Shown here piece after piece: positions 544 to 34,715 of a stretch of 45,779 nucleotides of DNA. The first letter of the stretch is position 1. Every line of letters starts with the position of its first letter. A model generated the notes under the pieces. The model ran no database searches. It had not been told where the DNA came from and worked only from the letters and a program-made list of their open reading frames with translations. Source of the stretch: an uncultured Planctomyces sp. (lineage in GTDB: Bacteria > Planctomycetota > Planctomycetia > Planctomycetales > Planctomycetaceae); the NCBI GenBank assembly GCA_937904325.1, contig CALGTK010000068.1, positions 1 to 45,779 of the forward strand. The letters are read 5' to 3'. A program made the position numbers and the translations under genes.

Positions 544-596
544 CTGACAACTGAAAGTGTCCTTGACGCAACTGCCACTTTATGGGCTCTTGTCAG
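544..596. repeat. Nested inverted repeat between convergent genes
   Basis: CTGACAA at 544-550 is complementary to TTGTCAG at 590-596, and inside it AAAGTG at 554-559 is complementary to CACTTT at 576-581. The structure sits between two convergent genes and overlaps the stop codon of the leftward one. It could act as a bidirectional terminator, but neither strand has a U-tract after the stem, so this is only a weak call. Confidence 0.3.
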
Positions 597-3702: not shown

Positions 3703-3730
3703 CGTCGTGTCCTTATTGTTTACTGAACTC

Positions 3731-5833: not shown

Positions 5834-5839
5834 TCTCAT

Positions 5840-5843
5840 CTCC
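5840..5843 (-). promoter_or_regulatory. Shine-Dalgarno GGAG deciding the esterase start
   Basis: GGAG on the minus strand touches the first ATG (5837-5839) but is 6 bases from the second ATG (5831-5833). Normal spacing therefore favours the second start. Confidence 0.5.
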
Positions 5844-5888
5844 GTCAGTCGGGGAATTTCTCTTGAACAAACGCTGCCGATCAGATTG

Positions 5889-7481
5889 TTACTTCTTGCG
5901 AGGCTTGATTGCTGGAGCGTCGATCGGTCTCAGCGGAAAGATTTCGGAGGGAACGCGTTCACTCTTCATCATAACGACGAGGTCCTTGACGATGCCGGGG
6001 TTCTCGTCCGCAACGTCGTGCTTTTCGCCGATGTCGTTCGCGATGTTGTACAGCTCGACCTGCATGTTCCCTCTGGTCATGTTCTGGCGGACAGCCTTCC
6101 AGTCGCCGACTCGAATCGTCTGCTGACCTCCGTAGCTGGGGAACTCGCGGTAAAGGAACGGTCGATCTTCCTGTTCGTTTCCGAGCAGCGTTGGTGCGAG
6201 GCTGATGCCATCGATATTTGCAGGAGCTTTGACCTTGCCTCCGGTGAGTTCGAGGAGCGTTGGCATCCAGTCTTCAAAGCCACTGATGCGATCGTTGCTT
6301 GAACCTGCTTTAACATGACCCGGCCAGCGGACGAGAGTCGGCACTCGAACGCCGCCTTCGTACAGCGAACCTTTCAGGCCTCGCAGTTCGCCGACACTCT
6401 TGAAGAAGGTGTAGTCGACTTCCTTGTCCAGATGTGTCGTGCCGTTGTCTGAGCTGAAGACGACGATGGTGTTGTCGGCAAGTTTCAGTTCATCGAGCAG
6501 ATTCAACAGGTTTCCGATGTAACGATCCATGCGTGAGATCATGGCTGCATAGGCGGCGCGCGGAGTGAAGTGAGGCGTGTACCCGTACCCGCCGTCGCGG
6601 GTGAACGGCGGATCCTTCCACTCGAGGTCCAGGTAAGGCTTCAGTTCTGCATCCGGAACATGCAACGCGACGTGAGGAATGACTGTCGGGTAGTACAGAC
6701 AGAACGGTCGGTCCTTGTTGTCTCGTACGAATTTGAGAGCCTGCTCGTTAATGCGGTCCGGCGCGTAGTCCTGCCCCTTGAACACGTCATAGCTGCGGGG
6801 GTCCGCCGAGTCAGCTCCCTTTGCAAGGCTCGAGTGACCGGGTACTGGCGGTTCATTCTTCAGTGGGAAATGCTTGTAGTCATTCCAAAGGTACGACGGG
6901 TAATAGCTGTGAGCGTGTGACTGGCAGTTGTAGCCGAAGAACCGGTTCACTCCCTGACGCAGTGGTTCCCCGGTCGACGCCGGGCCGCCCAGTCCCCACT
7001 TGCCGAATGCCCCAGTGACGTAACCCTGTTTCTGCATCAGCTCGAAGATGGTGACTTCGTCGTCGGGGATCGGCCATTGACCTTCTGGCGGCGTGCCTTT
7101 GTTGCTGCGAACGTATGCGTGTCCGGGATGTTTCGCCGTGACCAGCACGCAACGAGAAGGAGCACACACCGCGTTTCCGCAGTAGTGCTGCGTGAGTTTC
7201 ATGCCTTGCGAAGCCAGGCGGTCCAGGTGTGGAGTTTTGATCAACTCCTGCCCGAAGCTGCCGAGTTCTCGATAACCAAGATCGTCTGCCAGAATGAAAA
7301 CGATGTTCGGACGTCTTTGTGATTCAGCGGCAGCGGCCGCATCACTCTGTTGGCCGGTCAAGATTTGTCCGAAGACGACTAGAACAGCAATAATTGCGTA
7401 GACCTTCAACCCGTACTGTTTCGTTGGAATTGCCAGCAAGCTATGGGGTTGCGATATTTGACCGTGGTTGCTGAGTTTCAT
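5889..7481 (-). CDS. Secreted arylsulfatase (S1 family), CAPSR active site
   Basis: About 530 residues. A hydrophobic export segment (near YAIIAVLVVFG) precedes the sulfatase domain, which opens with NIVFILADDLGY (metal-binding Asp66-Asp67). The formylglycine motif is C106-A-P-S-R110, followed by CVLVTAKHPGHAYVRSN, where the usual TG(R/K) is TAK. Later landmarks include FGKWGLGG, a SSDNGTT metal-site segment and RVPTLVRWPG. Sulfatases of this type cleave sulfate esters and need a formylglycine-generating enzyme, which is not encoded here. The frame stays open back to an ATG at 7529, but an SD-like GAGAAAG precedes the ATG at 7481, which I prefer. The esterase lies 55 bases downstream. Substrate is not readable from sequence; sulfated carbohydrate is the contextual guess. 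Confidence 0.88.
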   Translation of the reverse strand: MKLSNHGQISQPHSLLAIPTKQYGLKVYAIIAVLVVFGQILTGQQSDAAAAAESQRRPNIVFILADDLGYRELGSFGQELIKTPHLDRLASQGMKLTQHYCGNAVCAPSRCVLVTAKHPGHAYVRSNKGTPPEGQWPIPDDEVTIFELMQKQGYVTGAFGKWGLGGPASTGEPLRQGVNRFFGYNCQSHAHSYYPSYLWNDYKHFPLKNEPPVPGHSSLAKGADSADPRSYDVFKGQDYAPDRINEQALKFVRDNKDRPFCLYYPTVIPHVALHVPDAELKPYLDLEWKDPPFTRDGGYGYTPHFTPRAAYAAMISRMDRYIGNLLNLLDELKLADNTIVVFSSDNGTTHLDKEVDYTFFKSVGELRGLKGSLYEGGVRVPTLVRWPGHVKAGSSNDRISGFEDWMPTLLELTGGKVKAPANIDGISLAPTLLGNEQEDRPFLYREFPSYGGQQTIRVGDWKAVRQNMTRGNMQVELYNIANDIGEKHDVADENPGIVKDLVVMMKSERVPSEIFPLRPIDAPAIKPRKK

Positions 7482-7711
7482 TTTATCTTTCTCTGAGGTT
7501 CTAATCATGCTGGGGTCTGAATGCTGCATAGACTAAGCAGGCCGGATTCACTCCGCGTTTGATTATCGAATTCTGTGCAAGACGGCACGACTTCACAAAC
7601 GACAACACTCAAGTTCCACGGGCATTTCCTGACGATTGGCCCCGATCTGGAGTCGCCTGACAAAATCTGGAAAGAAATCCGTCAGAATTCAACGACAGCG
7701 ACAATACTTTC

Positions 7712-13877: not shown

Positions 13878-15650
13878 CTAATTCTTCGTTTGAATGGACA
13901 GTTCAAGTTTCAGTTCGCCGCCGGTTGTTTTCATGTCGAACGACATTCCTTTAAAGAGGGTCAGCGATTCCAGAAGCAAACCGATTTCATGTTGAGACTC
14001 TTCGCGAGTCTGACCTTTCTTGATCATGTTCTGAGCGACAAGCTGATCACGGTTATCGTCGAGAGCTTCACTCAGCGTGTTTGCATTAAGCCGGATTGCC
14101 GTATTAGACGCTGCGCCGCGAGTCGTCTGCGCATTCTGTGTGGCGTCGACAAGGTCCTTGGCCATTTGCTTTGTACTGGCGATGAAGAACCAGTCTTGAG
14201 CGAACGCCAGCGATGGCGAGAAGTTAAACTGGATTCTTGCTCGCTCTGATTCTTTCTCATCGGGCTCGGGGACGAATGAAGCAGTGTAGATTTTGTTGTC
14301 GCGGTAGATATCGATATCCTGGTCGAGTTGGGGGTTCCCCTGCATGGCTCCGATAATGTTTAGAAATCCGACCATGCTCTGAAATGTCCGACGTAGCTCT
14401 GTCTGGGTTTCTTCTGCGTTTTCAAGATGACCTGCCAGGGCGAAACTCGGCAACTTGAGAGCGGGTTTTGGCATGACATCATTGAAATCCTGACGGTTGA
14501 CGAGAATCTGCATTGCCGGGCCGAACGAGCCAAGGACGTCTTCACCAAAGTCTTTGCCGGCAAAGAATGTTGTCAGGTTGGCATCGGCCTTGGCAAGTTC
14601 GTCATTCATTCGCTCATCGAACAGATCTCCCGCCCGCAGCCACATTTCGGAAACTTTTCGATACGTACTGATTGAAAGAATTGTCGATTCGGTGTCGAGT
14701 GGAGGATCGGCAGTGCCGTTTCCATCCGGGCCAAACCAGTATTCACGGAACTCTTCAACCCATTGGTTGTCGTGAGGTGCGGAAAGCTCCAGTCGAGTCG
14801 ATTTGCCGGTGACATATAACGATGCTGTCACGTACGGAGTCTGGCGAAGGTTGGTCAGAACTCCGCCGAACAGGAGTTCTGCAATTGGATTTTCGGTCCG
14901 ATTTGGTTCAAGACCTTTGGCGAGTCCAGCGTCGCGAATCGTTCCAAGGTCGACCCAGCTCCAGACTGTTGGCTCGCCGCTGATCGACTTGCGTGCGGCG
15001 GCGAAATTGTCACTGTCCTGAATCGATGCTCGAGCACCATCGAGCAGTGTATCGAGAACTTTCTTTCCCAGTTCATCTTTGTTGGACATGACAATCCATG
15101 GCCCAACGATTGCGAAACGGGCGTCGTTCTTTCCATAAACCGTGACTTCGCGATACTCGTCTTCGGGCAACGGTTCGTTCCCCTTTGAGCGAGCATCCGC
15201 TCGACCGAGTTCGATCAGCGTGTTGGCTGTACTTTGGAGCTTGTCGGCATCGGCTGATCGAACGAGAGCGACGACGCCTTCCGTTTCCGGATCAAAAGCA
15301 ATCGTAATGCCGCCACCGAGTAATGTGTCGTAGGCCTCACGCCACTTCATGCCGATCTGTGTTTCAATGTGCGTACGAATTCCAAGGAACATCATGTAAC
15401 CCGGGTTCGAAATTGCTTCGTTGTACTGTGGTTGCTGCTGAACTTTCTTCCAGACGTTGTGTTCGGTCAGCGTCGTCAGCAGCTGATCCGGGTGCGGCAT
15501 CTGAGCTACGGCCAGGCAGGATGCTGGCAGCAGCTCGAAAGCCGATCTTTCGTCGGTGTTCAGGTCAGCCTGGGCGTTCGCATTTGAGTGAGCGACTGCG
15601 GTGACCAGCAAACCGCAGAGCAACGATGCAGCCGAGAAGTGTCGAGTCAT
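13878..15650 (-). CDS. Exported DUF3352-like protein, function unknown
   Basis: 590 residues with a clear Sec-type signal peptide ending near ANAQA (residues 1-27). The body opens with LLPASCLAVAQMPHPDQLL, a pattern seen in planctomycete exported proteins annotated as DUF3352-like. It contains alternating strand/helix segments and no catalytic motif that I can identify. It is first in a three-gene leftward operon with DUF1800 and DUF1501. No heme, metal or lipobox motif is visible. The ATG has only a weak purine stretch upstream. Confidence 0.55.
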   Translation of the reverse strand: MTRHFSAASLLCGLLVTAVAHSNANAQADLNTDERSAFELLPASCLAVAQMPHPDQLLTTLTEHNVWKKVQQQPQYNEAISNPGYMMFLGIRTHIETQIGMKWREAYDTLLGGGITIAFDPETEGVVALVRSADADKLQSTANTLIELGRADARSKGNEPLPEDEYREVTVYGKNDARFAIVGPWIVMSNKDELGKKVLDTLLDGARASIQDSDNFAAARKSISGEPTVWSWVDLGTIRDAGLAKGLEPNRTENPIAELLFGGVLTNLRQTPYVTASLYVTGKSTRLELSAPHDNQWVEEFREYWFGPDGNGTADPPLDTESTILSISTYRKVSEMWLRAGDLFDERMNDELAKADANLTTFFAGKDFGEDVLGSFGPAMQILVNRQDFNDVMPKPALKLPSFALAGHLENAEETQTELRRTFQSMVGFLNIIGAMQGNPQLDQDIDIYRDNKIYTASFVPEPDEKESERARIQFNFSPSLAFAQDWFFIASTKQMAKDLVDATQNAQTTRGAASNTAIRLNANTLSEALDDNRDQLVAQNMIKKGQTREESQHEIGLLLESLTLFKGMSFDMKTTGGELKLELSIQTKN

Positions 15651-18066: not shown

Positions 18067-21000
18067 TTATCTGGCTGTAGTTGCCTGACGTTTTATTGTT
18101 TGGTCACCTTTAAGAAACTCCAGCAGGTCGGCCATGTTCTGCAGTGTGACGTCTTTCTCAACGCCTTCAGGCATTAGAGAAACATTGCTGGCGCGGATAA
18201 CGTCGATCTCGGCGCGGCCGATGGTTTGCTCTTTGCCTTCAGCCATTCGCAGGACAACGGCTTCGTCGGTTTCTGACACGATCAGCCCGTTGAAGACTTT
18301 TCCGTCCACGGTTGCCACTGTGTAGGCAGTGAAACGCGGCTCAACTTTTGAGTTCGGATCGAGAATGTCGTATAGCAGTGCGAGTTTCGATCTGTTTCGG
18401 ACATCGCTCAGGTCTGGTCCGACCTGATGCCCTTTGCCGTTGATACGGTGACACTTCGAACATGTTTTCTCAAAGACCTTCGCGCCGGCTGCGGGCGATG
18501 CTTCATGTGACAAAGCTGGTTGGTACTTTTTCGCGACAGCCTGCCGGTTGGATGAGACGGCGCCGCCGAACAGCTTCTTTGCCTGCTCACGAAGTTTTGC
18601 ATCTGAATGCTTCAGCAGCCGGACACGTTGGTCGATACTGAGCGCGGCAGGCCTCATTGTTCCTGCGGTCATGGCGTCAAGTGCGAGCTTTGTCGATGTC
18701 GTGCGGCGAAGTAGTAGCGTCAAGGCTGGCGCTCGTACTGCCGGCCCCAATTCCTGCCAGAGGTCGAGGACTATTCTCGCGGCGGATTCTGAGCCGTTGG
18801 CAGACAGAGCGTTGAGGCAGGCAGTCTGTACTTCGACTGGCTGGTCAGTTTCGAGTAATTCTTCAAAAGCTGGCGCAGCATCGGCAAACGGGCGGTAGGC
18901 GAGCAGCTCAACTGCGGCTGCTCGGCCAGCGGCAGGCTGTTTTCGGTCCACAGCGGCCTTTTGACTCTGAGCGAGCAGTTCTCGCATTCCCGCTGCCGCA
19001 TTCTTCAAACTTTCTGGAGGATTGTTCAGTAATAACGGTAGACTCAACCGTTTAAGGTCGCCTCGGTAGCGAGGCAGTCCCTGACCGAGACCGCTGATCG
19101 CCGCCGCCTGCCACCATGTGTTTGACGATTCGGAAATGGCTGTCGTACCGCCTGCCAGTGAGGTGAGAAGTTGCGACAGTTCGGTGACGTCGCCTCGAAC
19201 GCCTACGACGGTCGCCAGTCGTTTTACTAGCTGAGCACGTGCCGCACTTCCGGCAGCGACAAAGTCTTTGTTCGTGATGAGGGCGTTCACGATTGCTCCC
19301 GAGTGTTCGCTGGTTGATGTCAGTAGACCACTGACGAACCACGAATCTTCGCCGTCAGTCATCGCCAGGTAGGTCAGCAGTTTGGATGCTTCGGGGCGTT
19401 TACTTTGGCCCAGCGCGATGGCGACCTGAAATCGGACACTGGCATCCGGATCTTTGGCAAGTTCGGCCAGCCTGTTGAAGATCGCTTCATCGTTGTTGAT
19501 CCAGCGAATGGAAAGCTTGACTGCATCGTGGCGAACATGCGCGTCAACATCTTTCATCGCATGTGCGACGGCAGTGGCCGACGACGCACCGAGAGTGTTC
19601 AGAGTCCAGAGAGCGTGCAGGCGGGCTGTGGCATTGGGATGTTCCCGGAGGATTCTTTGGAGTCCAGACGTAACTTTCTGGCTGTCGGAATTGTTTGTGA
19701 AACTCTCGAATTGCTCAACGAGCAATCGCTGACCAAGGTACTGTTTCCACCCATTAGGCGACTCCAGCAACTTTGTCATATCGTTGAGAGATTTCGGTGG
19801 GGTGAACGGTTCGGGCCTCGCGCCGCTCGGAATGATCCTGTAGATGCGGCCTCGGTCTTCACCCGCTCGCCAGTCGAGTTTTGCGGCGATTTCTGGTGGA
19901 AGAAATTTGGGATGCTCGACCCACAGTCGGTACATGTCGGCGAGGTAGAGTGCTCCGTCAGGGCCGTTCGCGAGGCTTGCCGGACGGAACCATGTGTCTG
20001 TTGAGGCGATGAAGTCAGCCTGCGGTCGGGCTCGCTCAGCGGTGAGCCGCAAGCCATCGGGTCTGACGATTGAGCGAGTGACCAGATGGCCGATTGGTTC
20101 ACAGACGAGGACGCTGTCCTGAAACGTGCCGCGGAGCAGGTCACCGGTATAAGCAGTGACTCCGCAGGCCGAGGTGTGTGTGCCGGCGTGCGAGAGGTAG
20201 TTACTTTTCATTTTGACAAGTGGGTAAACGCGGGTGTCGCCACCGGATTTTCCGACGTCGTAATGAGCGGCTGCTGTGATCACGTACGGGTTTCGCTTGA
20301 GGATCGCCGGTGGCAACAGTGTCGTCATGATTGGATTTCGGTTTGTGCAGTAGAACCGGTTTCCCCAGCGGTCGACCGTGTTTCCGAACTGGCCCATGCC
20401 GCTGTCGGCTTCAAACTCCAGCGTCAGTGGATTGAAGCGGAGATCTTTCCGTGGCATCGTGACTGGTTCGCTTTTGGAATTGGGCGACGTAATTTTTCCC
20501 GGTCCGTAGTTGAGGTAAATCCAGTTGTCCATTCCCCAACGCGGATTACCGATCTGCATTTGCGGATGAGCTGGTGTAAAGCCATCAAACAGAACTTTTC
20601 TGACATCTGCTACGTTGTCGCCGTCGGTGTCTTTCAGAAAAATGATCTGTGTCTGCGCTCCGACAATCAGCCCTTCGCGAAATGGCATCAGACTGTGTGC
20701 GAACGTCAGCTTGTCAGCGAAGACGTGTCGCTTGTTGACCTGGCCATCGCCGTTCGTGTCTTCCAGGTAGACGACTCTGGATAAAGGATCGCCGCCGTCT
20801 TCCGGGCCGATGGGATAGTCGCCGTACTCGACGACAAACATGCGGCCGCGCTGGTCGAAGGCGATGGCTACCGGGTCTTTGACGAGCGGTTCGGATGCCA
20901 CCAACTGGATTTCAAAGCCTGGCTCAATCTGAAGAGCGGCGAGCGAATCCGCTGGCGATTTAGGGGGGGCGGTTTTCTCTTCGACCCAGTGTCGGCCTCC

Positions 21001-22512
21001 CCGGACACCTTCTATGACTTCCAGTGCGTTCTTCTGCAGAACCTGCTGCTGAGGCTTGCCGTCGATTTTTCCGGGCTTCCGTTGTCCGGTGCCCGCTTGT
21101 CCTTTGTCGCCGAGGTCCTTGCGGGCCAGGTTTGCAATTTGAGTCAGTTGAGCAATCACTTGTGGATGAGCGTCTGCAACGTTCTGCTCGCACGAGATGT
21201 CGTCGACGACGTTGAACAGCAGCGTTTCCGATGGCTTGCCTTTTCGGAAATGTGGATGCCCGGCAGCAACTTCGATGGGCAGAAACATCTTCCACGGACC
21301 CGATCTGACTGCCTGTAATTGATCCTGGTGATAGTAGTAGTAAGCGCCGTGCGGGGTCTTGGCGCCCGTTTCTTGGTACAGCAACGGAGTTATGTCGTGC
21401 CCGTCGATTTTGCGATCTGCCGGAGCGTTGCCTCCTGCAAGCCTGGCGAACGTTGGCAGAAGATCCATTGTTGATGCCAACGCGTCGCATGTTGTGCCGG
21501 CAGGAACTTTGCCAGGCTGCCAGACAATGGTGGGAACCCGGAAAGCGCCTTCGCTGGTTGTGTAACCTCGACCGTGGAGCGGACGATTGGAGCCTCGGCT
21601 GAGATCAGAGAGGTCGCGATTGATCGGCGCTCCGTTGTCCGACGTCCAGATGACAAGCGTGTTTTCTGCGATACCCAGTTCTTTGAGCTGGTCCAGCATC
21701 ACGCCCATCGACCAGTCGAGTTCTTCGATCGAGTCTCCCCAGGGGCCGTTCTTACTTTTGCCTTTGAATTGCTTACTTGAAAACGGTGTCTTGGTGCTGC
21801 CGGGCATGGCCTGTGGGAAGTACAGGAAGAATGGCTCATCTTTGTGCTCGGCGATCCACTCCATCGCTCTTTCGGTGTAGCGTTTGGTCAGGCCATCCCG
21901 GTCACACGGAGCTTCGATGACCGTTTCGTTTTCCATAAGCGGCAGCGGCGGCCACTGCGAGCCGTCTTTGTCCCAGACACGTTGGGTCATGTCGTCTGAG
22001 TAGGGAACTCCGAAGAACCAGTCGAAGCCTTGTTGCGTTGGCAGGAACTCCGGTTGATCACCCAGATGCCATTTTCCAACAATCGCGGTTGCGTATCCTT
22101 GTGCTTTTAAGACTTCGGCGACGGTCACTTCGTTCGGATGCAGTCCGTACTGCGAAACGGGACGCAGCACCCAGCCGTCGCGAGGGTTAAGATGCATGCC
22201 GACTCGTTGCGGGTAGCAGCCAGTCATGATGCTGGCGCGGGATGGCGTGCAGACTCCCGCAGTCACGCAGAAGTGTGTGAACATACGCCCCTCCTTCGCC
22301 ATCCGGTTGAGACCTGGCGTGCGATGCAGCGTCGATCCGAAAGGTTCGATGTCGCCGTACCCGAGGTTGTCGCAATAGATGACGATAAAGTTGGGTTTGT
22401 CGGTGGTAGCGGTGTTTGAATTCGCAGCGACGGCGTGCCGCGAGGCAGTTGTCGTGCTGAGCAGGGTAGCTGCGACGGCGAACAGACCCATCAGGCGAAT
22501 GCGATCTTTCAT
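18067..22512 (-). CDS. Sulfatase fused to PVC dehydrogenase, HEAT repeats and cytochrome c
   Basis: One uninterrupted 1481-residue frame. A signal peptide (about 1-30) is followed by a full sulfatase: NFIVIYCDNLGYGD, formylglycine motif C88-T-P-S-R92, VGKWHLGD, WTSDNGAP and RVPTIVWQPG. From about 515 a PVC membrane-bound dehydrogenase propeller begins (GFEIQLVASEPLVKDPVA, DTNGDG and DTDGDN loops), then HEAT-like repeats (about 960-1320), and a cytochrome c with C1351-S-K-C1354-H1355 and candidate Met1447. The second half aligns by eye with the stand-alone protein at 580-3702, including an identical 131-residue heme module. No frameshift or stop marks the junction near residues 465-515, which is a low-complexity linker rich in Gly, Lys and Gln. 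The likely role is coupled desulfation and oxidation of a sugar outside the cytoplasm (inference). GGAG lies 8 bases before the ATG. Confidence 0.85.
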   Translation of the reverse strand: MKDRIRLMGLFAVAATLLSTTTASRHAVAANSNTATTDKPNFIVIYCDNLGYGDIEPFGSTLHRTPGLNRMAKEGRMFTHFCVTAGVCTPSRASIMTGCYPQRVGMHLNPRDGWVLRPVSQYGLHPNEVTVAEVLKAQGYATAIVGKWHLGDQPEFLPTQQGFDWFFGVPYSDDMTQRVWDKDGSQWPPLPLMENETVIEAPCDRDGLTKRYTERAMEWIAEHKDEPFFLYFPQAMPGSTKTPFSSKQFKGKSKNGPWGDSIEELDWSMGVMLDQLKELGIAENTLVIWTSDNGAPINRDLSDLSRGSNRPLHGRGYTTSEGAFRVPTIVWQPGKVPAGTTCDALASTMDLLPTFARLAGGNAPADRKIDGHDITPLLYQETGAKTPHGAYYYYHQDQLQAVRSGPWKMFLPIEVAAGHPHFRKGKPSETLLFNVVDDISCEQNVADAHPQVIAQLTQIANLARKDLGDKGQAGTGQRKPGKIDGKPQQQVLQKNALEVIEGVRGGRHWVEEKTAPPKSPADSLAALQIEPGFEIQLVASEPLVKDPVAIAFDQRGRMFVVEYGDYPIGPEDGGDPLSRVVYLEDTNGDGQVNKRHVFADKLTFAHSLMPFREGLIVGAQTQIIFLKDTDGDNVADVRKVLFDGFTPAHPQMQIGNPRWGMDNWIYLNYGPGKITSPNSKSEPVTMPRKDLRFNPLTLEFEADSGMGQFGNTVDRWGNRFYCTNRNPIMTTLLPPAILKRNPYVITAAAHYDVGKSGGDTRVYPLVKMKSNYLSHAGTHTSACGVTAYTGDLLRGTFQDSVLVCEPIGHLVTRSIVRPDGLRLTAERARPQADFIASTDTWFRPASLANGPDGALYLADMYRLWVEHPKFLPPEIAAKLDWRAGEDRGRIYRIIPSGARPEPFTPPKSLNDMTKLLESPNGWKQYLGQRLLVEQFESFTNNSDSQKVTSGLQRILREHPNATARLHALWTLNTLGASSATAVAHAMKDVDAHVRHDAVKLSIRWINNDEAIFNRLAELAKDPDASVRFQVAIALGQSKRPEASKLLTYLAMTDGEDSWFVSGLLTSTSEHSGAIVNALITNKDFVAAGSAARAQLVKRLATVVGVRGDVTELSQLLTSLAGGTTAISESSNTWWQAAAISGLGQGLPRYRGDLKRLSLPLLLNNPPESLKNAAAGMRELLAQSQKAAVDRKQPAAGRAAAVELLAYRPFADAAPAFEELLETDQPVEVQTACLNALSANGSESAARIVLDLWQELGPAVRAPALTLLLRRTTSTKLALDAMTAGTMRPAALSIDQRVRLLKHSDAKLREQAKKLFGGAVSSNRQAVAKKYQPALSHEASPAAGAKVFEKTCSKCHRINGKGHQVGPDLSDVRNRSKLALLYDILDPNSKVEPRFTAYTVATVDGKVFNGLIVSETDEAVVLRMAEGKEQTIGRAEIDVIRASNVSLMPEGVEKDVTLQNMADLLEFLKGDQTIKRQATTAR

Positions 22513-25650: not shown

Positions 25651-27057
25651 TCAGGCGATGATGTCATCGATGACGTGCCCGTGGACGTCAGTCAGACGAA
25701 AGTCCCGGCCGGCGTGACGGTAGGTCAGGCGTTCGTGATTCAGACCGAGCAGGTGCAGGATCGTCGCATGAAAGTCGTGAACGTGTACAGCGTCTTCCTC
25801 GATGTGATTACCAATGTCGTCCGTACTGCCGTAGACGATCCCACCTTTCACGCCTCCACCGGCCATCCATCCTGAGAACGCGTCCGGATGGTGATTTCGA
25901 CTCTTCGTTCCCTTGCCGTCCTGAGCCCAGGGAGAACGGCCAAACTCCGTGCAGAAAACCAATAGAACGTCGTCCAGCATTCCACGTTGCTTGAGGTCGC
26001 GAATCAGGGCGGCGATTGGCTGGTCGACTCGCTTTGCATATTTGGTATGCGAACCGATGTCGCGGTGTGCTGAATCCCAGTTGTCGCGACAGGCTCCCAC
26101 GGAGTCAACAATTTCTACAAAGCGAACGCCAGATTCGACAAGCCGCCTGGCCATGATGCACTGGGCTGCGTACGAGCGTCGGTCCCCCGGTTTGGCTCCA
26201 TAGAGTTTGAGCGTTTGTTTCGATTCTTTGCTCACGTCCAGAACTTGTGGTGCAAGATCCTGCAGCCCCTTTGCCGTACGAAAAGTATCCTGCCGGCCGA
26301 TCAGTCGTGGTGCGAGTGCCCGTTGTTCGAGATGCCTTTGATTCAGAGATGCCAGAAGTTCGAGCTCCATATTCTGAAGCCTGGCCGGCGAGTTCGGTTT
26401 TAGATATGGCAACGGTTGGTCGCCGGGCATCACCTGCACACCTGAGTGGATCGCTGGCAGAAAGTTGGAATTCCAGATCATCGGCCCGTTGTACGGTCGG
26501 TGCTCACTGATGACGACGTGTCCGGGCAGTTGCGGATTCTCCGTACCAAGACCATAGCTGAGCCATGAACCCAGACTCGGCATCGGTACATTGGTGCTGC
26601 CTGTATGAAGTTGCAGTGTTGCTTCGCCGTGGTCGCGATGATCAGAGTGCAGAGATCGGATCAAAGCTGCTTCGTGCATCACGTTTCGGATGTGCGGAAA
26701 AAGGTCACTGACCGCGGTCCCGCATTCTTGATTGGGACGGAAATTCCAGTTGGAAGCTTTCAGGTATCGTTCGTGCTTGACCTGTTGAGGAGCGGCATTG
26801 GCTGGCGAACCAATCGGTTTGTCATGGTCGCGCGTCAGCCTTGGTTTTGGATCGAATGTGTCGACGTGCGAGAATCCTCCGGACATGTAAAGCACGATTA
26901 CGTGTCTAGCATGCGGTTGACGATGGGGCGGCTTGGTGACGTGGGAGATGTCAGCGCTAGCGTGGGTGTCGCTGAGCACTGGCAACAAAGAAGCTGCAGT
27001 TCCGGCGGAGAATGTTTGTAGTGCGTGTCGACGTGAAAATTTGCGATTATGCGACAT
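25651..27057 (-). CDS. DUF1501 domain protein with Tat signal (partner of PSCyt1/DUF1553 gene)
   Basis: About 468 residues from the ATG at 27057, which places a twin-arginine-type leader (SRRHALQTFSAG) at the very start. The frame is open back to a TTG at 27126, but that would overlap the upstream gene. Landmarks of the family are VLYMSGGFSHVDTFDPKP, HSDHRDHGEATLQLHTG, FCTEFGRSPWAQ and SRNHHPDAFSGWMAGGG, ending in a GLNHERLTYRHAGRDFRLTD region like that seen in planctomycete DUF1501 proteins. It follows the PSCyt1-DUF1549-DUF1553 gene by 58 bases, the standard planctomycete pair, so the two products very likely act together outside the cytoplasm. Biochemical activity is not established. Confidence 0.88.
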   Translation of the reverse strand: MSHNRKFSRRHALQTFSAGTAASLLPVLSDTHASADISHVTKPPHRQPHARHVIVLYMSGGFSHVDTFDPKPRLTRDHDKPIGSPANAAPQQVKHERYLKASNWNFRPNQECGTAVSDLFPHIRNVMHEAALIRSLHSDHRDHGEATLQLHTGSTNVPMPSLGSWLSYGLGTENPQLPGHVVISEHRPYNGPMIWNSNFLPAIHSGVQVMPGDQPLPYLKPNSPARLQNMELELLASLNQRHLEQRALAPRLIGRQDTFRTAKGLQDLAPQVLDVSKESKQTLKLYGAKPGDRRSYAAQCIMARRLVESGVRFVEIVDSVGACRDNWDSAHRDIGSHTKYAKRVDQPIAALIRDLKQRGMLDDVLLVFCTEFGRSPWAQDGKGTKSRNHHPDAFSGWMAGGGVKGGIVYGSTDDIGNHIEEDAVHVHDFHATILHLLGLNHERLTYRHAGRDFRLTDVHGHVIDDIIA

Positions 27058-27115
27058 CGGCGAGAACCTGAAGGATTGAGAACTTGAAGGATCGAGACAC
27101 TGGAAAGCTGGAGAG

Positions 27116-29776
27116 TCAGTCGACAAAGAAAAACTCGTTGCTGGTCAGTATGGTTCGAGCAATTGCTGTCCAGGTCTGTCGCCTGACATCGCCTTTGCGG
27201 TGCTGCTTGCCGCTGTGTTTTTCGAACTGCTGGATGAAGGTTGTCAGTTGGGTCAATTCGTCGTCGTCCGATTGTCGCCCATAAGCAAGCTGGAAAGTGA
27301 AGTTCACCCGATCGACAGTAGAATTCCGTTCACGCATGATTCGTTCGGCGAATGACTCTGCCTGTCTTCGGATGAAGGTGGAATTCATCAGGAACAGTGC
27401 CTGGCCGGGCACATCAGAACTGGTCCGCTGCGATGTTGTCTGGCTGGTGTCAGGAGGATCGAAGAGACCAAGAAAGGAATGGTCGAACAGGCGTTGAGTC
27501 AGTAGATAGACGCTGCGTTTGTTTGTTTCGTGTTCCATATGAAATGGACCGTTCAAACCGTATCGTTTTTTGTGCCACGCAGGCAGAGGATGCGGACCGC
27601 CCTGAGTCCGATCCAGTTGCCCGTTAACGAAAAGCATCGCATCGCGAATTGCCTCAGCTTCCAGGCGGCGTCGCGGAAAACGCCATAGATACCTGTTGGT
27701 TGGATCGACGGAAGGAGCGTCAATTTGCCTGTCAGAACTTGCGAAATTCGCACCGCTGACCTCAGGGGCACTCTCGTCGACCACAGACGCAAGGCGGTAG
27801 CTACGAGTCATGACGATGCGGCGGTGCAGTGCCTTCAGTGACCAGCCATCGTGATTAACAAACTGTTCGGTAAGCCAGTCGAGAAGTTCAGGATGTGATG
27901 GCCGTTCGCCTCGGATTCCAAAGTTATCCGGTGTCGCGACCAGTCCTTGTCCAAAATGGCGTTGCCAGATTCGGTTCACGATGACTCGGGGGACGAGTGG
28001 GTGATCAGATTGCGTCAGCCATCGAGCCAATTCAAGACGTCCTGAGCCGTTAGTAATTCGTGGAGCATCAGGTCCATCGATTACCTGCAGGAAACGCCGC
28101 GGAGTGACTGGGCCCTTACGCGCCGGTTCGCCTCTTCGTTGCACGTTGGCGTCGCGCGGCTGTCCTTCGCCGACACCGAACACCATTTCGACGGGTGGGT
28201 TCTCTGCGAGCCGCTCCTTCTCCTTTTTCAGCCACGCGAGGCCGTGCAGCATTAATTCCCGAAATCGGCCGGAGTGCCTGCCCAGCAATTCATCGCGCTG
28301 CTTCGTCAGGTCGTCCGTTGGGGCACCGGCAGTCTTAGCTTTCTGCCAGTCAAGTTTCACTTTCTTGAATTCATCAAGCGTCGGCTTCAGCCATGGTCGG
28401 AAGTGATTGTTGATCTGATATTCGTAGCGAGTGATCGTCTCCCAGAACTCGTCAACCAACTGCTTTGCATTGGGGGCGACGGTCGCCGGAGCCAGTGCAG
28501 ACGGCGATTTTTCTACAGACATCCCCATCCACGGATAAGTCGTACTATTGAAGATGCCATACAGTCCGTAGTAGTCAGTTTGCAGAACCGGGTCGAAGGG
28601 GTGGTCGTGGCAGCGCGAACATCGCAGCGTCAGCCCCAGCAATCCTCGTCCCAGTGTGTCGATTGTGTTTTCGATCGTGAGGTGCAGTTGATCGTTTTTT
28701 GAGTTTCCAAATCGTTGGGACAGAGAAATGAAACCGGTTGCGACTACGAGGTTTCGCACTTCGTCGCTCTTGGCTGTCGAATTGAGAGCCGTTTTAGACT
28801 CCGTTTCTTCAGATGTTGAAGCGAGCTTTCGGGCGAGAACGTCACCGGCAATCTGCGCTTGCAGAAATGTGTCGAACGGCATGTCGGCATTCAGTGCGTC
28901 GATCACCCAATTGCGATAACGCCACGCATCGGGGATTGGAATATCGCCGACATCGCCTTGCGTGTCGGCATATCGAGCGACGTCCAGCCAGTGTCGGCCC
29001 CAGCGCTCGCCGTAGTGAGAAGATCGAAGGAGGCGGTTAATCAGAGATCTCCAGGCGTCATCGTCGGAACGCGGATCGGCAACGAATTCTTTGATCTCGG
29101 TCGGCGTCGGTGGGAGTCCAGTCAGGTTAAAAGTGATACGCCTTATCAGTGTCCGGCGATCTGCTTCGCGCACTGCGGTCAGATGTTTTTTCCGCCGTTC
29201 GTTCTGGAGAAAACGATCGATTTCGTGGCCTGCCCAACGAGCGTCGTCGACCTTCGGCGGAGGGACCAATTTCCGGGGCTTGAACGACCAGTGGTCAGTT
29301 TTAACTGTTTTGCCTGTGAGCTGTTTCTCCAGTTCAGCCTCTGGCAGCCCGTCAACGAGCTTCGTTCTGGGCCAGACCGCTCCATCGTCAATCCATCTTG
29401 CCAGTACTGAAATCTCTTCACGTGAGAGGCGGTTGTTCTCGTCTGGCGGCATGCGGAGTTCTTTGTGCGTCCATTTTACCGCTCGAATCAGCACGCTGTC
29501 CTGTGATCGTCCCGGCAGAATGGACGGACCGAAATTAGCGCCTTTCAGAAGATGTTCGCGCGAAGCGATGGCGAAGGAAGATTCGTCGGTGTCATCACCC
29601 GCATGGCAGTCAAGACACTTCTGAATCAGAAGCGGCCGGACAGTGTTTTCGAAGAAGTGTTCCTGCTCACTTCGCTTTGCTGGTGAAGTTGTCTCTTCAC
29701 CAACGGCTTGAGAAAAAGCGATGGTTGAAAGGATGATTACCAGCCAGCTAAGGCCGCGCGAGATGGCTTGCAGCAT
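27116..29776 (-). CDS. PSCyt1-DUF1549-DUF1553 planctomycete cytochrome protein
   Basis: About 886 residues from the ATG at 29776, which directly precedes a signal peptide (LSWLVIILSTIAFSQA). A planctomycete cytochrome c domain follows with C54-L-D-C57-H58 and a later LRMPPD segment that may supply the axial Met. Next comes DUF1549 (about 170-380, EIDRFLQNERRKKHL, ITFNLTGLPPTPTEI, HWLDVARYADTQGD) and then DUF1553 (about 555-860, LARWLTQSDHPLVPRVIVNR, WQRHFGQGLV, HPELLDWL). This three-domain order is the textbook planctomycete architecture. It is assumed to be a periplasmic heme protein involved in polysaccharide or sugar oxidation; the reaction is unknown. It lies 61 bases after the 1537-residue fusion and 58 bases before its DUF1501 partner. 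A longer TTG start (29848) would overlap the upstream gene and is rejected. Confidence 0.9.
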   Translation of the reverse strand: MLQAISRGLSWLVIILSTIAFSQAVGEETTSPAKRSEQEHFFENTVRPLLIQKCLDCHAGDDTDESSFAIASREHLLKGANFGPSILPGRSQDSVLIRAVKWTHKELRMPPDENNRLSREEISVLARWIDDGAVWPRTKLVDGLPEAELEKQLTGKTVKTDHWSFKPRKLVPPPKVDDARWAGHEIDRFLQNERRKKHLTAVREADRRTLIRRITFNLTGLPPTPTEIKEFVADPRSDDDAWRSLINRLLRSSHYGERWGRHWLDVARYADTQGDVGDIPIPDAWRYRNWVIDALNADMPFDTFLQAQIAGDVLARKLASTSEETESKTALNSTAKSDEVRNLVVATGFISLSQRFGNSKNDQLHLTIENTIDTLGRGLLGLTLRCSRCHDHPFDPVLQTDYYGLYGIFNSTTYPWMGMSVEKSPSALAPATVAPNAKQLVDEFWETITRYEYQINNHFRPWLKPTLDEFKKVKLDWQKAKTAGAPTDDLTKQRDELLGRHSGRFRELMLHGLAWLKKEKERLAENPPVEMVFGVGEGQPRDANVQRRGEPARKGPVTPRRFLQVIDGPDAPRITNGSGRLELARWLTQSDHPLVPRVIVNRIWQRHFGQGLVATPDNFGIRGERPSHPELLDWLTEQFVNHDGWSLKALHRRIVMTRSYRLASVVDESAPEVSGANFASSDRQIDAPSVDPTNRYLWRFPRRRLEAEAIRDAMLFVNGQLDRTQGGPHPLPAWHKKRYGLNGPFHMEHETNKRSVYLLTQRLFDHSFLGLFDPPDTSQTTSQRTSSDVPGQALFLMNSTFIRRQAESFAERIMRERNSTVDRVNFTFQLAYGRQSDDDELTQLTTFIQQFEKHSGKQHRKGDVRRQTWTAIARTILTSNEFFFVD

Positions 29777-29837
29777 TGGTGTCTCTGAGTTTGTGCCAGG
29801 GTTTCGCTGGAGAGTTTGTTGTGCCGTTAACGACTTC

Positions 29838-32800
29838 CTATTCAACAATCATCTCGCCGTTCATGACAAGCCAGTGGCCGGGGAAGGTGCAGAGGTAGGG
29901 GTAGCTGCCCGTTTCTTTCGGGGCTGTGAAGTAGATGATGGATTCGTCTTTGGGAAGTACGACGTTCGTGTAAGCAAGTACGTCTTCGGTTTTCGGGATA
30001 TAATGCCGGATGGCGGCTTCCGGATCGGAGATCAGCTGGTTGGACAGCCTGCCGACTCTTTCCATCGTTCCGGGTTTGAGCAACGCCCAGTTATGCGGGA
30101 CGACGTCCGGATTCAGAAGTTTGAACTCGATGAATTCGCCCGGTTTGACTGTGAATGACCTCGTTGCAAACGAAAGATTGCTGGCTGTTTCGATGGTGAT
30201 CTGGCGGCCGCCCTTGCGGCGTTTTGTATGAGGGTTAGGCACGCTGCGAGTGGCCATCGCCAGGTCCGCGTGAATGGGATGGGGGTTAATCGTCTTGTTG
30301 GATAGGTCCAGCAGTCCCGGCGCGTCGGTAAATTGTTCTTCTCGCAGTTTGTGCACCGTTGCGAACAGCTCGTATGTTTGCCCCTCTCCAGTTTGAAGTC
30401 GCAGATGGAGCTGGTTGACCGGCTGCAGTTCGGGCATTTCCAGGAACAGCCCCTTGCCGTCATACACGACGTGCGCGGAAGAAACTGGCACGTGGTCGTG
30501 GCCTCGCATCAGTGGATGCTTGCTGGAGAATTCCGGCGATCCGTACGCGCCGCTGTAGCGATAATTCCAGGCTTGTGCGAAATGATTGTTTGCCTGCGAT
30601 GCGATCGTCGTATCGATCGGCTGGGAGAAGTTGATCAGCACTCCGTTGCGGAAGACCTTGTAACCAACGGGAAGTTGCACGGGATCACCGGTGTAGCGAA
30701 CTCGTTGGAAGCACCCGGTCTGAGGTGTGTAGCTGCCCCAACCCTGCATCCCAGTCACGTAAAGCTGGCCATCGTGCGGCGAGAATCGACCGCGGTGGAC
30801 GCCGGAAAGAAACTCACCGGGAAGAGGAACGTTCGCGCCTTGAATCTGACCATCAACTTCGTCTTGCAGTGTTAGAAAGTGCGAACCGGTTCCGAAGGAG
30901 AAATGAAGCAACTGGCCTTTCAGGGGGCCCCATCGCTCACTTGTCACCGTTTGCTGACCGCCTGCTGAGTTGTCGATGCCACGCGGAAAGTAAACGAGCG
31001 GCAACTTAGGTGTTTGCCCATTCTTCGGTCCGCGAAATCCAAAGAACGGTGATGCTTCAGCCGTCTTACTACTGTCCGGTTTGAATGCACAGATCATCGT
31101 CGAAGGAGTCCACGAACCCTCGGAGCAGGGGACCGTGATTAAACCGTCTGATGTCAGTCCGATGCCGTCTGGGTTGCGGAATCCTGTGGCGACGACGTCG
31201 GCCTGCTTGCCGTTGGATGAGATCTGCACGATCCCCTGGTTGCCGGACGCCGTGTAAAAGTTGCCGGTTTTGTCTCGTTCAAGGCCGCAAATGAAATCGT
31301 GTCCGGCAGCAGAAGTTTCGAACGCGTTGGAGAAGCAATGGTAATAGTCGGCTTCACCGTCGCCGTTGAGATCGTGCAGGCGAGTGAGCTGGTCACGTCC
31401 CATGACAAAGATGCCGTCCTCGTCGATGATCATTCCCTGACAGTGGTGAAGTCCTGACGCGAATCGATTCCACGTAGCTTTCTTTGATGGGTAATCGAGG
31501 CCTGAAACACGCCACACATCTCCGTGCATCGTGCAGACAAGTGCGGAGCCATCGGGAAGAAAACCAAGGCCACCGCCAAACATGGGGACATTCCACGGCG
31601 TTTTCTTCGGGAGCTGGATGGTGTCGACAGAGTAGGGCGATGTGTCTCCATGAACGATGTCCGTCTCGAACGTTTCGGGCCATTGCGGCTTACTCATACC
31701 GATTCGATCAGCCAATTGATGTTCGGATGCCGGACCGGCGACTCGAATAAACTTGCCGTCTTCGATCCAGGGGGAATCGAAATACTCGGTATCACCGATC
31801 TGGTACGAGAAGACGATCCGATTGTCGACTCGATGATAACCCCGATAAGTGAACGGCTCGTTTACTTTGGTCCCTTCAGGGCCGTTGCCGCGGTCGGGGT
31901 TTGGATGAGCCTGTCCATCCATCAGCACGCCGTGCAGGAAGCCGTGACGAACAGACGAGAACTTAAGGAAGCCACCTTTCCAGACAGCATCGTAAGACAG
32001 CGTGTCAGGATTGAAGCAGCAGGCCAGTTCACCGTCGTCACCAAGTTGCACGCAGATTCCTCGTGGTACCGTGACGCCGTCGCCGCGGAAGATGCCGGCC
32101 TGAACCGTTCCCAGTTTCGCCTCATTCCAGACGCCACTGGCCCAGGTCGTTTCGTTCTGGTTGCCCCAGTGCCCGAGTTCTCCGCCGTCGAGGCCGGGAT
32201 ACTCCATCAGCAGTGGCGGGACGGGCTTACCAACCTGAGCCAAAGCCCTGAAATGGTCGGCTTCCTTGGCGTAGAAATCGTAAATGCGATCGCGGTTGAC
32301 TGTATGTTGCCAGCTTGGCCAGCCTTCAGGATGCAGCGGCTTGCGGTCAAAATCGAAAGCTACCGGTCCATGTAGATGAGCATGCGTGTGCTGGATGATC
32401 GACTTGACGTCCGACATTGAAATGCCGTCCGGCGTGCCGAGTCCGATCAGAAAACTCAGCAGGTCACGCAATTGAGCTTTCGACATCGTGGCCGTCAGGT
32501 TGTCCGGCATCAGCGTGCCGATCTCGCGTCGGGCTTCGATGTCGTCTTTGGGGATTCTGACGAGCTGATCCTTCAGCCGCGTTGAATCTTTCAGATGCAA
32601 CTGCTGGTCGTCTTCGTTGACGATGTAACCGCGGATGGATTTTCCTTCTGAGGTGACAACGAGATGAGCGTTGAACTCCGGCTTAACGTGACGCTTTGGC
32701 CAAAGTACCGATTCAATGATTTCGTGAGGCTTGCGTTGATTGCCGATTTCGTTGAGCGGCGGTCCGACGGTCCCTCCGTGACTTCCAAACTTGTGGCAGT

Positions 32801-34451
32801 TCAGGCAAGCTGACTTTGCGTTGGCAAAGACCATGATCCCTCTCGCTGCGTCACCATGTTCCTTCGCGTCAGCGAGCAGTTGCGAAACAAGTTCAGGGGT
32901 GTACTCGGGAACTTTTACCATCGGTGCCGAGTTGTCTCCGTGAGACGCAGTCTGATGGTCCGCGTGTGAATTCTCAGACCTGGCCCAGGCCAGCAACGTG
33001 GACTCGTCTTTTGGCGGAGCGTGAGCCGTCGTTGAAACCGACTTCCGGGCACCCGTGCTGATCCTTACCCACTCGGGCAATCCAGAGCTGCCAATGCTAC
33101 CTTCGACCAGTTTTCCGATCGCAAAGCCGCCTGGCACCGTGGCTCGTCCGGCCGATACAACTTTCTGACTGGCGACAAGCTGTCCATCGACAAATAACCG
33201 GATCAGTTTGGATTCGTAAGTCATCGCTACGTTGTGCGGCTTGCCGTCGCAAATCATCGCCGCTGAAGTTGTATGATCAGGGGTCAGTCCCGGTGTATAC
33301 ACGGTGAGGTTACCCGAGCCATTCATTGTGAACAGTTCCCAGTGCTCACCCGATTGTTTCGTATCGCTGGCAACGATGATGTTGTAGTTGCTTCGCGAGG
33401 GCAGTGTGACTCGTGCTTCGACGGTGATCGGGGGAGTTCGATATTCGGTCTTTCCTTTGAGTAACACCCCCGCAACGTTCTGGTGTGAACTCGGGGATGA
33501 GGCATCAGACTGTGGTGACCATGTTCTGGGAGTTGGCTTCGGCCCGGGTTGTTTGCCGTCGAGTTGTGGAAGAATCCAGTCGAGACCATCGAGGTTATCC
33601 TGCAACCGTTGCTCAACGTCGTCCTGAGTGTGGCCGATGATGCCGATCGGTCCGTCGTAGCCAGAGTCACGAATCGTCTTCAGCAGCGAAACATCCAGTT
33701 CGCCTTCGCCGAGTGGCAGGATCTTCTTTCCGTGCTTGTCACCGTCTCGCGTGATCCCGTTCAGGTTCAGGCAAAGCAGAAACGGCTTCATTGCCTTGAG
33801 GTTAGCTGCAAAGTCATCGACACGACTGTGCGAGTGATGCTGGTTGTAAACGATACCAACGTGCTCGCCGTTGTGATGCTTTCTCAAGTATTCGCAGACC
33901 GCGACCAGGTTCTCCGGTTCGCCGCCCCATCCGCCGTGGTTATAGAGTCCGACCTTGCATTTCATCTCACGGGCTGTTTCGACCAACGGCAACATCTGAT
34001 TCGCGGCTGCTTTGACGTGGTCTTCCTGAGTCGCACTGTTTAGCGGGCCGATCATTCTCCAGATCTGCGGATGCAGGTCGTGCTTCTTGAAGAGTTTGTA
34101 CGCTTCTGCATGCCCGCCCCAGAAAGCGAAGTACTCGATGCCGTGCTTTTTGTATTCGAGAATCTCCTGTTCGAATGTTGGCACATGCTCGTTTCGCCAA
34201 TCGTAGGCAACTTTTTTCAGCCCCAGCTTCGCACACATCGCCGCCCGCTCCGCCGGGCCACGTTTCTTCCCATCAAAAGGTACAATGCACCAGGCAACAA
34301 GATTGTTCCGTGCGAACAGTCCGTTGGATTCAGGGGCGGAATGCGAATCTGTCGAAGTCTGATCGCTGACAATGCCGGCAATGGAAACTGCAGATAAATT
34401 CAACGCGCATAGAGTGAACGCGAAACGTCGGAATCGTCGTGCTGATGACAT
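29838..34451 (-). CDS. Giant fusion: TIM-barrel isomerase-like, LamG-like, cytochrome c, beta-propeller, azurin-like copper domain
   Basis: 1537 residues from the ATG at 34451, which has GAGG 8 bases upstream and begins a signal peptide (RFAFTLCALNLSAVSIAG); an open frame extends to 34598 but lacks such support. Residues about 45-300 resemble the sugar phosphate isomerase/epimerase (AP-endonuclease-2) TIM barrel. About 330-465 resemble a LamG/concanavalin domain (VEARVTL, HNVAMTY, LFVDGQLV). About 535-672 form a PVC-type cytochrome c with C549-L-N-C552-H553 and candidate Met648. About 715-900 resemble DUF6797-like exported proteins. About 960-1290 form a sorbosone-dehydrogenase-like beta-propeller (GLGFLPDGSALVCTMHGDVWR). 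The last 110 residues are cupredoxin-like with His1453, Cys1521, His1526 and Met1530, in the azurin-style C-TFPG-H-WLV-M spacing. It is the first gene of a leftward trio with PSCyt1/DUF1553 and DUF1501. Role inferred: sugar-acting redox enzyme carrying its own electron path. Confidence 0.82.
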   Translation of the reverse strand: MSSARRFRRFAFTLCALNLSAVSIAGIVSDQTSTDSHSAPESNGLFARNNLVAWCIVPFDGKKRGPAERAAMCAKLGLKKVAYDWRNEHVPTFEQEILEYKKHGIEYFAFWGGHAEAYKLFKKHDLHPQIWRMIGPLNSATQEDHVKAAANQMLPLVETAREMKCKVGLYNHGGWGGEPENLVAVCEYLRKHHNGEHVGIVYNQHHSHSRVDDFAANLKAMKPFLLCLNLNGITRDGDKHGKKILPLGEGELDVSLLKTIRDSGYDGPIGIIGHTQDDVEQRLQDNLDGLDWILPQLDGKQPGPKPTPRTWSPQSDASSPSSHQNVAGVLLKGKTEYRTPPITVEARVTLPSRSNYNIIVASDTKQSGEHWELFTMNGSGNLTVYTPGLTPDHTTSAAMICDGKPHNVAMTYESKLIRLFVDGQLVASQKVVSAGRATVPGGFAIGKLVEGSIGSSGLPEWVRISTGARKSVSTTAHAPPKDESTLLAWARSENSHADHQTASHGDNSAPMVKVPEYTPELVSQLLADAKEHGDAARGIMVFANAKSACLNCHKFGSHGGTVGPPLNEIGNQRKPHEIIESVLWPKRHVKPEFNAHLVVTSEGKSIRGYIVNEDDQQLHLKDSTRLKDQLVRIPKDDIEARREIGTLMPDNLTATMSKAQLRDLLSFLIGLGTPDGISMSDVKSIIQHTHAHLHGPVAFDFDRKPLHPEGWPSWQHTVNRDRIYDFYAKEADHFRALAQVGKPVPPLLMEYPGLDGGELGHWGNQNETTWASGVWNEAKLGTVQAGIFRGDGVTVPRGICVQLGDDGELACCFNPDTLSYDAVWKGGFLKFSSVRHGFLHGVLMDGQAHPNPDRGNGPEGTKVNEPFTYRGYHRVDNRIVFSYQIGDTEYFDSPWIEDGKFIRVAGPASEHQLADRIGMSKPQWPETFETDIVHGDTSPYSVDTIQLPKKTPWNVPMFGGGLGFLPDGSALVCTMHGDVWRVSGLDYPSKKATWNRFASGLHHCQGMIIDEDGIFVMGRDQLTRLHDLNGDGEADYYHCFSNAFETSAAGHDFICGLERDKTGNFYTASGNQGIVQISSNGKQADVVATGFRNPDGIGLTSDGLITVPCSEGSWTPSTMICAFKPDSSKTAEASPFFGFRGPKNGQTPKLPLVYFPRGIDNSAGGQQTVTSERWGPLKGQLLHFSFGTGSHFLTLQDEVDGQIQGANVPLPGEFLSGVHRGRFSPHDGQLYVTGMQGWGSYTPQTGCFQRVRYTGDPVQLPVGYKVFRNGVLINFSQPIDTTIASQANNHFAQAWNYRYSGAYGSPEFSSKHPLMRGHDHVPVSSAHVVYDGKGLFLEMPELQPVNQLHLRLQTGEGQTYELFATVHKLREEQFTDAPGLLDLSNKTINPHPIHADLAMATRSVPNPHTKRRKGGRQITIETASNLSFATRSFTVKPGEFIEFKLLNPDVVPHNWALLKPGTMERVGRLSNQLISDPEAAIRHYIPKTEDVLAYTNVVLPKDESIIYFTAPKETGSYPYLCTFPGHWLVMNGEMIVE

Positions 34452-34715
34452 CTTCGCCTCGTCAAGGAAAGTAACCGATTGAGGCGGCATCATCGAAGAT
34501 GATCGAACATAACGCCAACCAACCGAGTTTGTTATGTGAATCAATTGGCATCGGATGCGTTGCTGGAAACAGTTTAGTCGGTCGTAGCGTCCCGCCACAT
34601 GAAGATCTAGCGGATGAATATTTTGTGATCGTACATCCGGCTGTTTACGGTCGGGCCACTGATTTTACGACGATTTAATCACTCAGCTGTCGTGAACTGA
34701 TCAGTTCGCCGGGTG

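Follow-up and report, generated by a model that had tools for sequence, protein, structure and literature searches.

A planctomycete protein family combining heme c, DUF6797, a beta-propeller and an azurin-like copper domain in one chain

The gene studied here lies in a window of 45,779 nucleotides, by which we mean the whole stretch of DNA analysed, and encodes a single chain of 1537 residues (Table 1). It starts with an ATG at 34451, and a Shine-Dalgarno-like GAGG is found 5 nt upstream, at 34457-34460. Along the chain we identified, in order, a signal peptide, a TIM barrel of the xylose-isomerase fold, a LamG domain, one heme c domain, a DUF6797 region, a six-bladed propeller and an azurin-like domain. 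The original prediction, made from the letters alone, had proposed an exported protein with all of these domains except DUF6797, which it overlooked; Pfam and NCBIfam profile scans returned its TIM, LamG, heme and copper domains, a weak propeller match, and DUF6797 in addition. The residues that it named (C549, C552, H553, M648, H1453, C1521, H1526 and M1530) are all found at the positions given, and the N-terminus has the appearance, by eye, of a Sec-type signal sequence, consistent with the export of a single chain.

Table 1. Features of the gene and of its neighbours in the window.
Feature	Position	Strand	Evidence or remark
Complete gene, encoding an exported multidomain redox protein of 1537 aa	29838..34451	-	Open reading frame
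Sec-type signal sequence, residues 1-26	34374..34451	-	RRFRRF, then hydrophobic AFTLCALNLSAVSIA, boundary before G; read by eye from sequence
Xylose-isomerase-like TIM barrel with replacements at the canonical metal ligands, residues 45-312	33516..34319	-	Profile and structure
LamG / ConA-like domain, residues 333-480	33012..33455	-	Laminin_G_3 339-453 (9e-11); missing in 19 TIM-keeping relatives
TIGR02603-type cytochrome c domain, residues 533-675 (profile match 533-668)	32427..32855	-	80 bits against a cut-off of 68.15
Heme-attachment motif C549-L-N-C552-H553	32793..32807	-	72/72 rows
Met648, predicted distal heme ligand	32508..32510	-	72/72 rows; aligned to M292 of Kustd1711
DUF6797 region, residues 700-930 (Pfam core 812-891)	31662..32354	-	PF20601 1e-12, 48.7 bits against a cut-off of 24.9
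Beta-propeller, residues 938-1254	30690..31640	-	Core model; conserved H1051, R1092, R1220, W1238, R1250, R1252
Azurin/auracyanin-like cupredoxin, residues 1414-1537	29841..30212	-	Pfam Copper-bind 1420-1537 (7e-8); core model
Copper ligand H1453	30093..30095	-	72/72 rows
Copper ligands C1521, H1526, M1530 (CTFPGHWLVM)	29862..29891	-	72/72 rows
Neighbouring PSCyt1-DUF1549-DUF1553 protein, overlaps the gene end	27116..29848	-	Pfam; system membership not implied
Neighbouring DUF1501 protein	25651..27126	-	Pfam; system membership not implied

A scan of GTDB species genomes identified 154 relatives of the 1537-residue protein, indicating that the multidomain chain is not a product of chance or of sequencing error, and is a planctomycete family. 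We read 79 loci, at 71 of which both the heme and azurin domains could be aligned to the window protein, giving an alignment of 72 rows. The eight ligands of heme and copper are identical in 72/72 rows, down to about 44% core identity; as the rows were picked for having heme and azurin, the 72/72 measures residue conservation and leaves whole-domain losses uncounted. Each of the 72 chains contains exactly one CxxCH. The reading frame, predicted to be uninterrupted, is open along all 1537 residues, and the same uninterrupted frame is found in dozens of independent genomes; a frameshift, which would have split the chain, or a chimera was rejected on this ground. One relative (L023) is split, in that one MAG only.

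The two genes that follow on the same strand encode a PSCyt1-DUF1549-DUF1553 protein and a DUF1501 protein. In this genome (G000), the PSD1 (DUF1553) profile matches 125 times across 8 Mb; one unexplained class of heme proteins is thus extremely expanded, and with so many copies the PSCyt/DUF1501 neighbourhood is uninformative. We rejected the pair as an operon clue, since the number of loci with a PSD1 protein nearby (15 of about 79) does not exceed what chance would give, roughly 0.25 per 16 kb, a rough expectation that is taken from one genome (125 copies, 8 Mb) and applied to flanks many of which are shorter. No conserved operon pointing to a pathway was found at the loci read.

For the heme domain, we identified a counterpart in Kustd1711 of Kuenenia stuttgartiensis, both by profile (E 2e-24) and in the model of the core (7zs0, Z 16.8, 28% identity). 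The crystal structure shows M292 of Kustd1711 to be a heme ligand (PMC11791136), and M648 is the residue aligned to it, so that the proposed heme c with Met648 is borne out as His/Met ligation by homology. Kustd1711 is a diheme protein consisting of two heme domains alone, whereas the present chain has one heme domain inside a large protein; the hemes of Kustd1711 itself have potentials of about +350 mV in the calcium-bound state. The chain was modelled as two overlapping pieces. The core model has a pLDDT of 89.5 and a pTM of 0.80, the latter saying only that the placement of the domains is fairly confident, and the N-terminal piece has a pTM of 0.39, leaving the placement of the TIM barrel and LamG undefined.

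For the copper domain, the core model contains the cupredoxin fold on which the original prediction depended. It matches auracyanin A (2aan; Z 19.0, 118 residues superposed at an rmsd of 1.4 A, 29% identity) and, at a Z of about 17, the azurins. With auracyanins A and B and azurin the domain shares the fold, the four type-1 ligands and the C-x4-H-x3-M spacing, and it differs from them in being fused to a propeller and a heme domain. The predicted azurin spacing is accurate for C-x4-H-x3-M and off by one for the first histidine: the offset from H1453 to C1521 is 68 (as in 71 of the 72 rows from first His to Cys), leaving 67 residues between them, not 68. The TIGR02695 azurin equivalog cut-off is missed, at 31.8 of 105.1 bits. 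The top Foldseek match of the core is nitrous oxide reductase, which likewise has a propeller followed by a C-terminal cupredoxin; however, its cupredoxin is a binuclear CuA site with two cysteines, whereas that of the present protein is of type 1, and C1521 is the sole cysteine of the domain. Kinship with nitrous oxide reductase was rejected, as the likeness is one of domain order only (query TM-scores 0.11-0.17) and the single cysteine does not fit.

The presence of a beta-propeller, also predicted, is supported by structural matches and by a weak profile match, of DUF7133/TIGR02604 at residues 995-1087 (TIGR02604 scoring 23 bits where the cut-off is 122). Searches with the propeller sequence returned NHL-type matches only, and in the core model the sugar-dehydrogenase propellers 2ism, 3a9g and 3das (Z 17.1-18.1) are level with designed and NHL propellers, all three kinds falling within Z 17-19. 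We collected 40 paralogues with DUF6797 and the propeller from other planctomycetes and from this genome, none of which (0/40) matched the azurin model. These azurin-less proteins retain H1051, R1092, R1220, W1238, R1250 and R1252 without exception (40/40), suggesting that H1051, R1092, R1220, R1250 and R1252 are likely to form an active or binding site. A propeller loop, D1027-x-N-x-D-x-E-x-D1035, is conserved across the aligned family and may resemble a calcium loop.

The N-terminal parts of 39 paralogues were scanned, and contained DUF6797 in 39/39, LamG in 19/39, ThuA in 10/39 and a 3-keto-disaccharide hydrolase domain in 4/39, indicating that the DUF6797-propeller module has repeatedly been joined to carbohydrate domains. 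These fusions, together with the role proposed for DUF1080 proteins in periplasmic 3-keto-sugar chemistry (PMC9007349), are suggestive of a carbohydrate substrate. However, LamG, ThuA and 3-keto-disaccharide hydrolase domains are common in planctomycetes, and their fusion is therefore weak evidence for a substrate. We additionally observed chains of more than 2000 residues with LamG, DUF6797 and the propeller (L145, L146, L147, L151 and others), one of which (L145) carries ThuA in front of these domains and PA14 and cytochrome c behind them.

The sugar-dehydrogenase-like fold of the propeller raises the question of whether the protein is a PQQ-dependent sugar dehydrogenase of the GSDH/AA12 type that carries heme and copper acceptors of its own. 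A joint profile of the family and its paralogues matched GSDH with a probability of 94.6% (E 6.9e-8 for one pair), and in this alignment R1092 falls on the conserved arginine of the GSDH G-x-R-N motif; the paralogue L162 matches Pfam GSDH at 2e-5, and a paralogue score of 24.5 bits was obtained against a cut-off of 25. Against this, the propeller profile of the family alone matched GSDH with a probability of only 1.3%, H1051 is displaced by one column from the GSDH histidine in the alignment, and the 1537-residue protein itself has no match to Pfam GSDH (PF07995) at E 0.01. Moreover, PqqE is absent over cut-off from this genome, which is 99.87% complete, and was found over cut-off in just 1/199 planctomycete genomes sampled, although the propeller family is widespread. 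The sole pqqE (G097:C59:21099-22139) scored 546 bits, indicating that the PqqE model works. An endogenous PQQ enzyme is improbable given the missing PqqE here and in 198/199 of the genomes sampled, uptake of PQQ from outside is possible, and we consider a PQQ dehydrogenase as a whole to be quite unlikely. We consider it likely, however, that the propeller is a distant relative of the PQQ sugar dehydrogenases.

The TIM barrel has a clearly xylose-isomerase-like fold, with matches of the model to UlaE (Z 19.7) and YcjR (Z 18.5), a probability of 98.6% between its profile and 18 isomerase-family proteins of this genome (hhalign), and a match to Pfam AP_endonuc_2 at residues 135-282 (8e-7; 29.4 bits, short of the cut-off of 31.1, and 33.2 bits, over it, in the genome scan). 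There are 37 AP_endonuc_2 matches in this genome, and only this protein is a strong match to the family's own TIM profile, the next having an E of 1e-6. The Glu-Asp-His-Glu metal ligands of the superfamily map to Y170, N203, N229 and I272; across 52 TIM-bearing proteins the first three never vary, while L or I occupies position 272. With all four ligands replaced, canonical isomerase chemistry appears unlikely. The same 52 proteins share an invariant set of pocket residues (N171, H172, W175, H205, H206, H208, N231 and H274) in the motifs YNHGGW, NxHHxH and NLNG; judged by its sequence, the pocket is strongly constrained yet has no canonical isomerase site.

An active sugar isomerase was accordingly rejected, the metal site having been lost. 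The proposal of the original prediction, that the barrel acts on sugar and feeds an electron relay, is most improbable for its isomerase: besides the changed metal positions, isomerisation yields no electrons, and of the 71 relatives 19 are intact except that they lack the barrel, their core being complete without it. The further remark that a TIM barrel behind a signal peptide is unusual is weakened by stand-alone homologues with signal-peptide-like starts, of about 290-360 residues, in other planctomycetes. The neighbours of their genes (sigma factor, histidine kinase, VWA and UPF0047) have no theme.

A second enzymatic role for the barrel would be as part of a bifunctional 3-keto-sugar enzyme, in which the propeller would oxidise a glycoside at C3 and the TIM domain would cleave or epimerise the 3-keto product. 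This would fit the closeness of the fold to the 3-keto-glucoside epimerase YcjR, the invariant pocket, the ThuA and 3-keto-disaccharide hydrolase domains of the paralogues, and the periplasmic 3-keto chemistry with DUF1080 partners that has been proposed elsewhere from genetics (PMC9007349). It is nevertheless very doubtful, with all four metal ligands of that TIM superfamily gone, and with the barrel and the core occurring independently in several genomes, such as G024, which holds the TIM domain alone, and G121, which holds the core alone. In two further genomes (G194 and G137) the core and the TIM domain are encoded by separate genes, and no separate TIM gene was found beside the core-only genes at the loci read.

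We identified three architectures in the family: TIM, LamG and core in 33 proteins, the window protein included; TIM and core in 19; and core only in 19, with one truncated row scored as having the TIM domain and one uncertain row set aside. These are interleaved on a tree of the core, with 17 label changes against about 33 in shuffles, and two relatives (L047 and L059) that have no LamG are nested in clades with TIM and LamG. The TIM and LamG domains have been gained or lost repeatedly over an intact core, and the usual conserved and evolutionary unit is heme c-DUF6797-propeller-azurin. However, one relative (L205:2060-6454) consists of TIM, LamG, DUF6797, propeller and azurin with no heme domain, and another (L206:2749-6273) is permuted to DUF6797-propeller-azurin-heme, indicating that the heme is not strictly required and that its position is not fixed.

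The heme-azurin pair is found three more times in genome G000, in each case with azurin before heme: in a 372-residue minimal protein (L209:2875-3990, C222), in a GDSL-DUF7133-HEAT-azurin-heme chain (L207:1687-5646, C173) and in a DUF7133-HEAT-PA14 azurin-heme protein (L208:2-3757, C22). The pair thus recurs in this genome as a portable theme, with its order reversed. The heme-to-copper relay, proposed originally within one chain, could be intermolecular. The recurrence of the pair in other frameworks, and on its own, is what would be expected of a portable electron-transfer cassette, and the whole protein might accordingly be a non-catalytic scaffold for electron transfer or sensing, on which the propeller, LamG and TIM domains bind partners or polysaccharide and the heme and copper shuttle electrons between other enzymes. 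The lost TIM metal site and the absence of PqqE would suit such a scaffold, and the strict conservation of the propeller histidine and arginines in azurin-less paralogues argues against it, suggesting a functional pocket and not a platform alone; we consider it rather unlikely.

The reading that we prefer, tentatively and with a probability of roughly 45%, is that of a secreted, probably periplasmic, self-wired oxidoreductase, with a site in the propeller feeding its own heme and copper and with optional carbohydrate modules. The DUF6797-propeller module would bind and oxidise a small, probably carbohydrate-like substrate, in a putative site built from H1051, R1092, R1220, R1250 and R1252. The electron would then be taken up within the same chain, by the His/Met heme c and by the azurin domain, and the azurin domain may dock on a soluble cytochrome or oxidase, like free azurins. 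This genome encodes a heme-copper oxidase subunit, and such an oxidase, reached via a soluble carrier, is a possible electron sink. The TIM barrel, with its conserved Asn/His pocket in place of a canonical metal site, and LamG would be optional front ends that grip or process carbohydrate. It is also conceivable, if rather unlikely, that the protein is a PQQ-independent, single-chain sugar oxidase or dehydrogenase, in which the DUF6797-propeller pair would act as a catalytic module of a new type, its cofactor either new or built in, wired to the heme c and type-1 copper of the same chain and served by interchangeable carbohydrate front ends.

We file the family with the PVC-type heme-propeller proteins, as a variant, and not among the azurin equivalogs, the isomerases or the PQQ dehydrogenases, as it lacks a defining feature of each of these. 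Like the PVC-type heme-binding CxxCH proteins (TIGR02604/DUF7133 with TIGR02603), it is a secreted PVC-phylum chain with a propeller and a TIGR02603 heme domain. It differs in that its heme domain lies ahead of DUF6797 and of a propeller of another kind, in that a type-1 copper domain ends the chain, and in that no HEAT repeats were matched in the 1537-residue protein. The 40 planctomycete DUF6797-propeller proteins share the pair and the same histidine and arginine residues, often with LamG and cytochrome c, but are fused to ThuA, 3-keto-disaccharide hydrolase or PA14 domains and not to this TIM barrel, and have no azurin. The soluble PQQ sugar/aldose dehydrogenases (GSDH, PF07995) have the propeller fold and the G-x-R-N motif in common with the present protein, which differs in having no Pfam GSDH match and in coming from a genome without PqqE over cut-off.

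The heme domain and the cupredoxin fold are each known; for their combination and order we found no description, and in the literature searched no paper describing azurin-heme fusions in planctomycetes or DUF6797 was found, which is not proof of absence. One widespread family locks heme, copper and a sugar-dehydrogenase-like propeller into one polypeptide, and its simpler natural relatives, which have the core alone, no LamG, TIM as a separate protein, no heme, or the heme in another place, would let the modules be examined one by one. Should the propeller prove catalytic, the family would provide a biochemical handle on DUF6797 and its class.

We additionally noted other genes of the window, all on the reverse strand. 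Between the DUF1800 and PhoD genes lies a 590-residue open frame with no Pfam match (13878-15650). Another enzyme-heme fusion is found at 18067-22512, as a chain of 1481 residues with a sulfatase domain, a DUF7133 propeller, HEAT repeats and cytochrome c. Finally, the region at 580-7529 encodes a DUF7133-HEAT-cytochrome c protein adjoined by an acetyl-xylan/glucuronyl-esterase-like protein and a sulfatase, and these genes are possibly a polysaccharide cluster.
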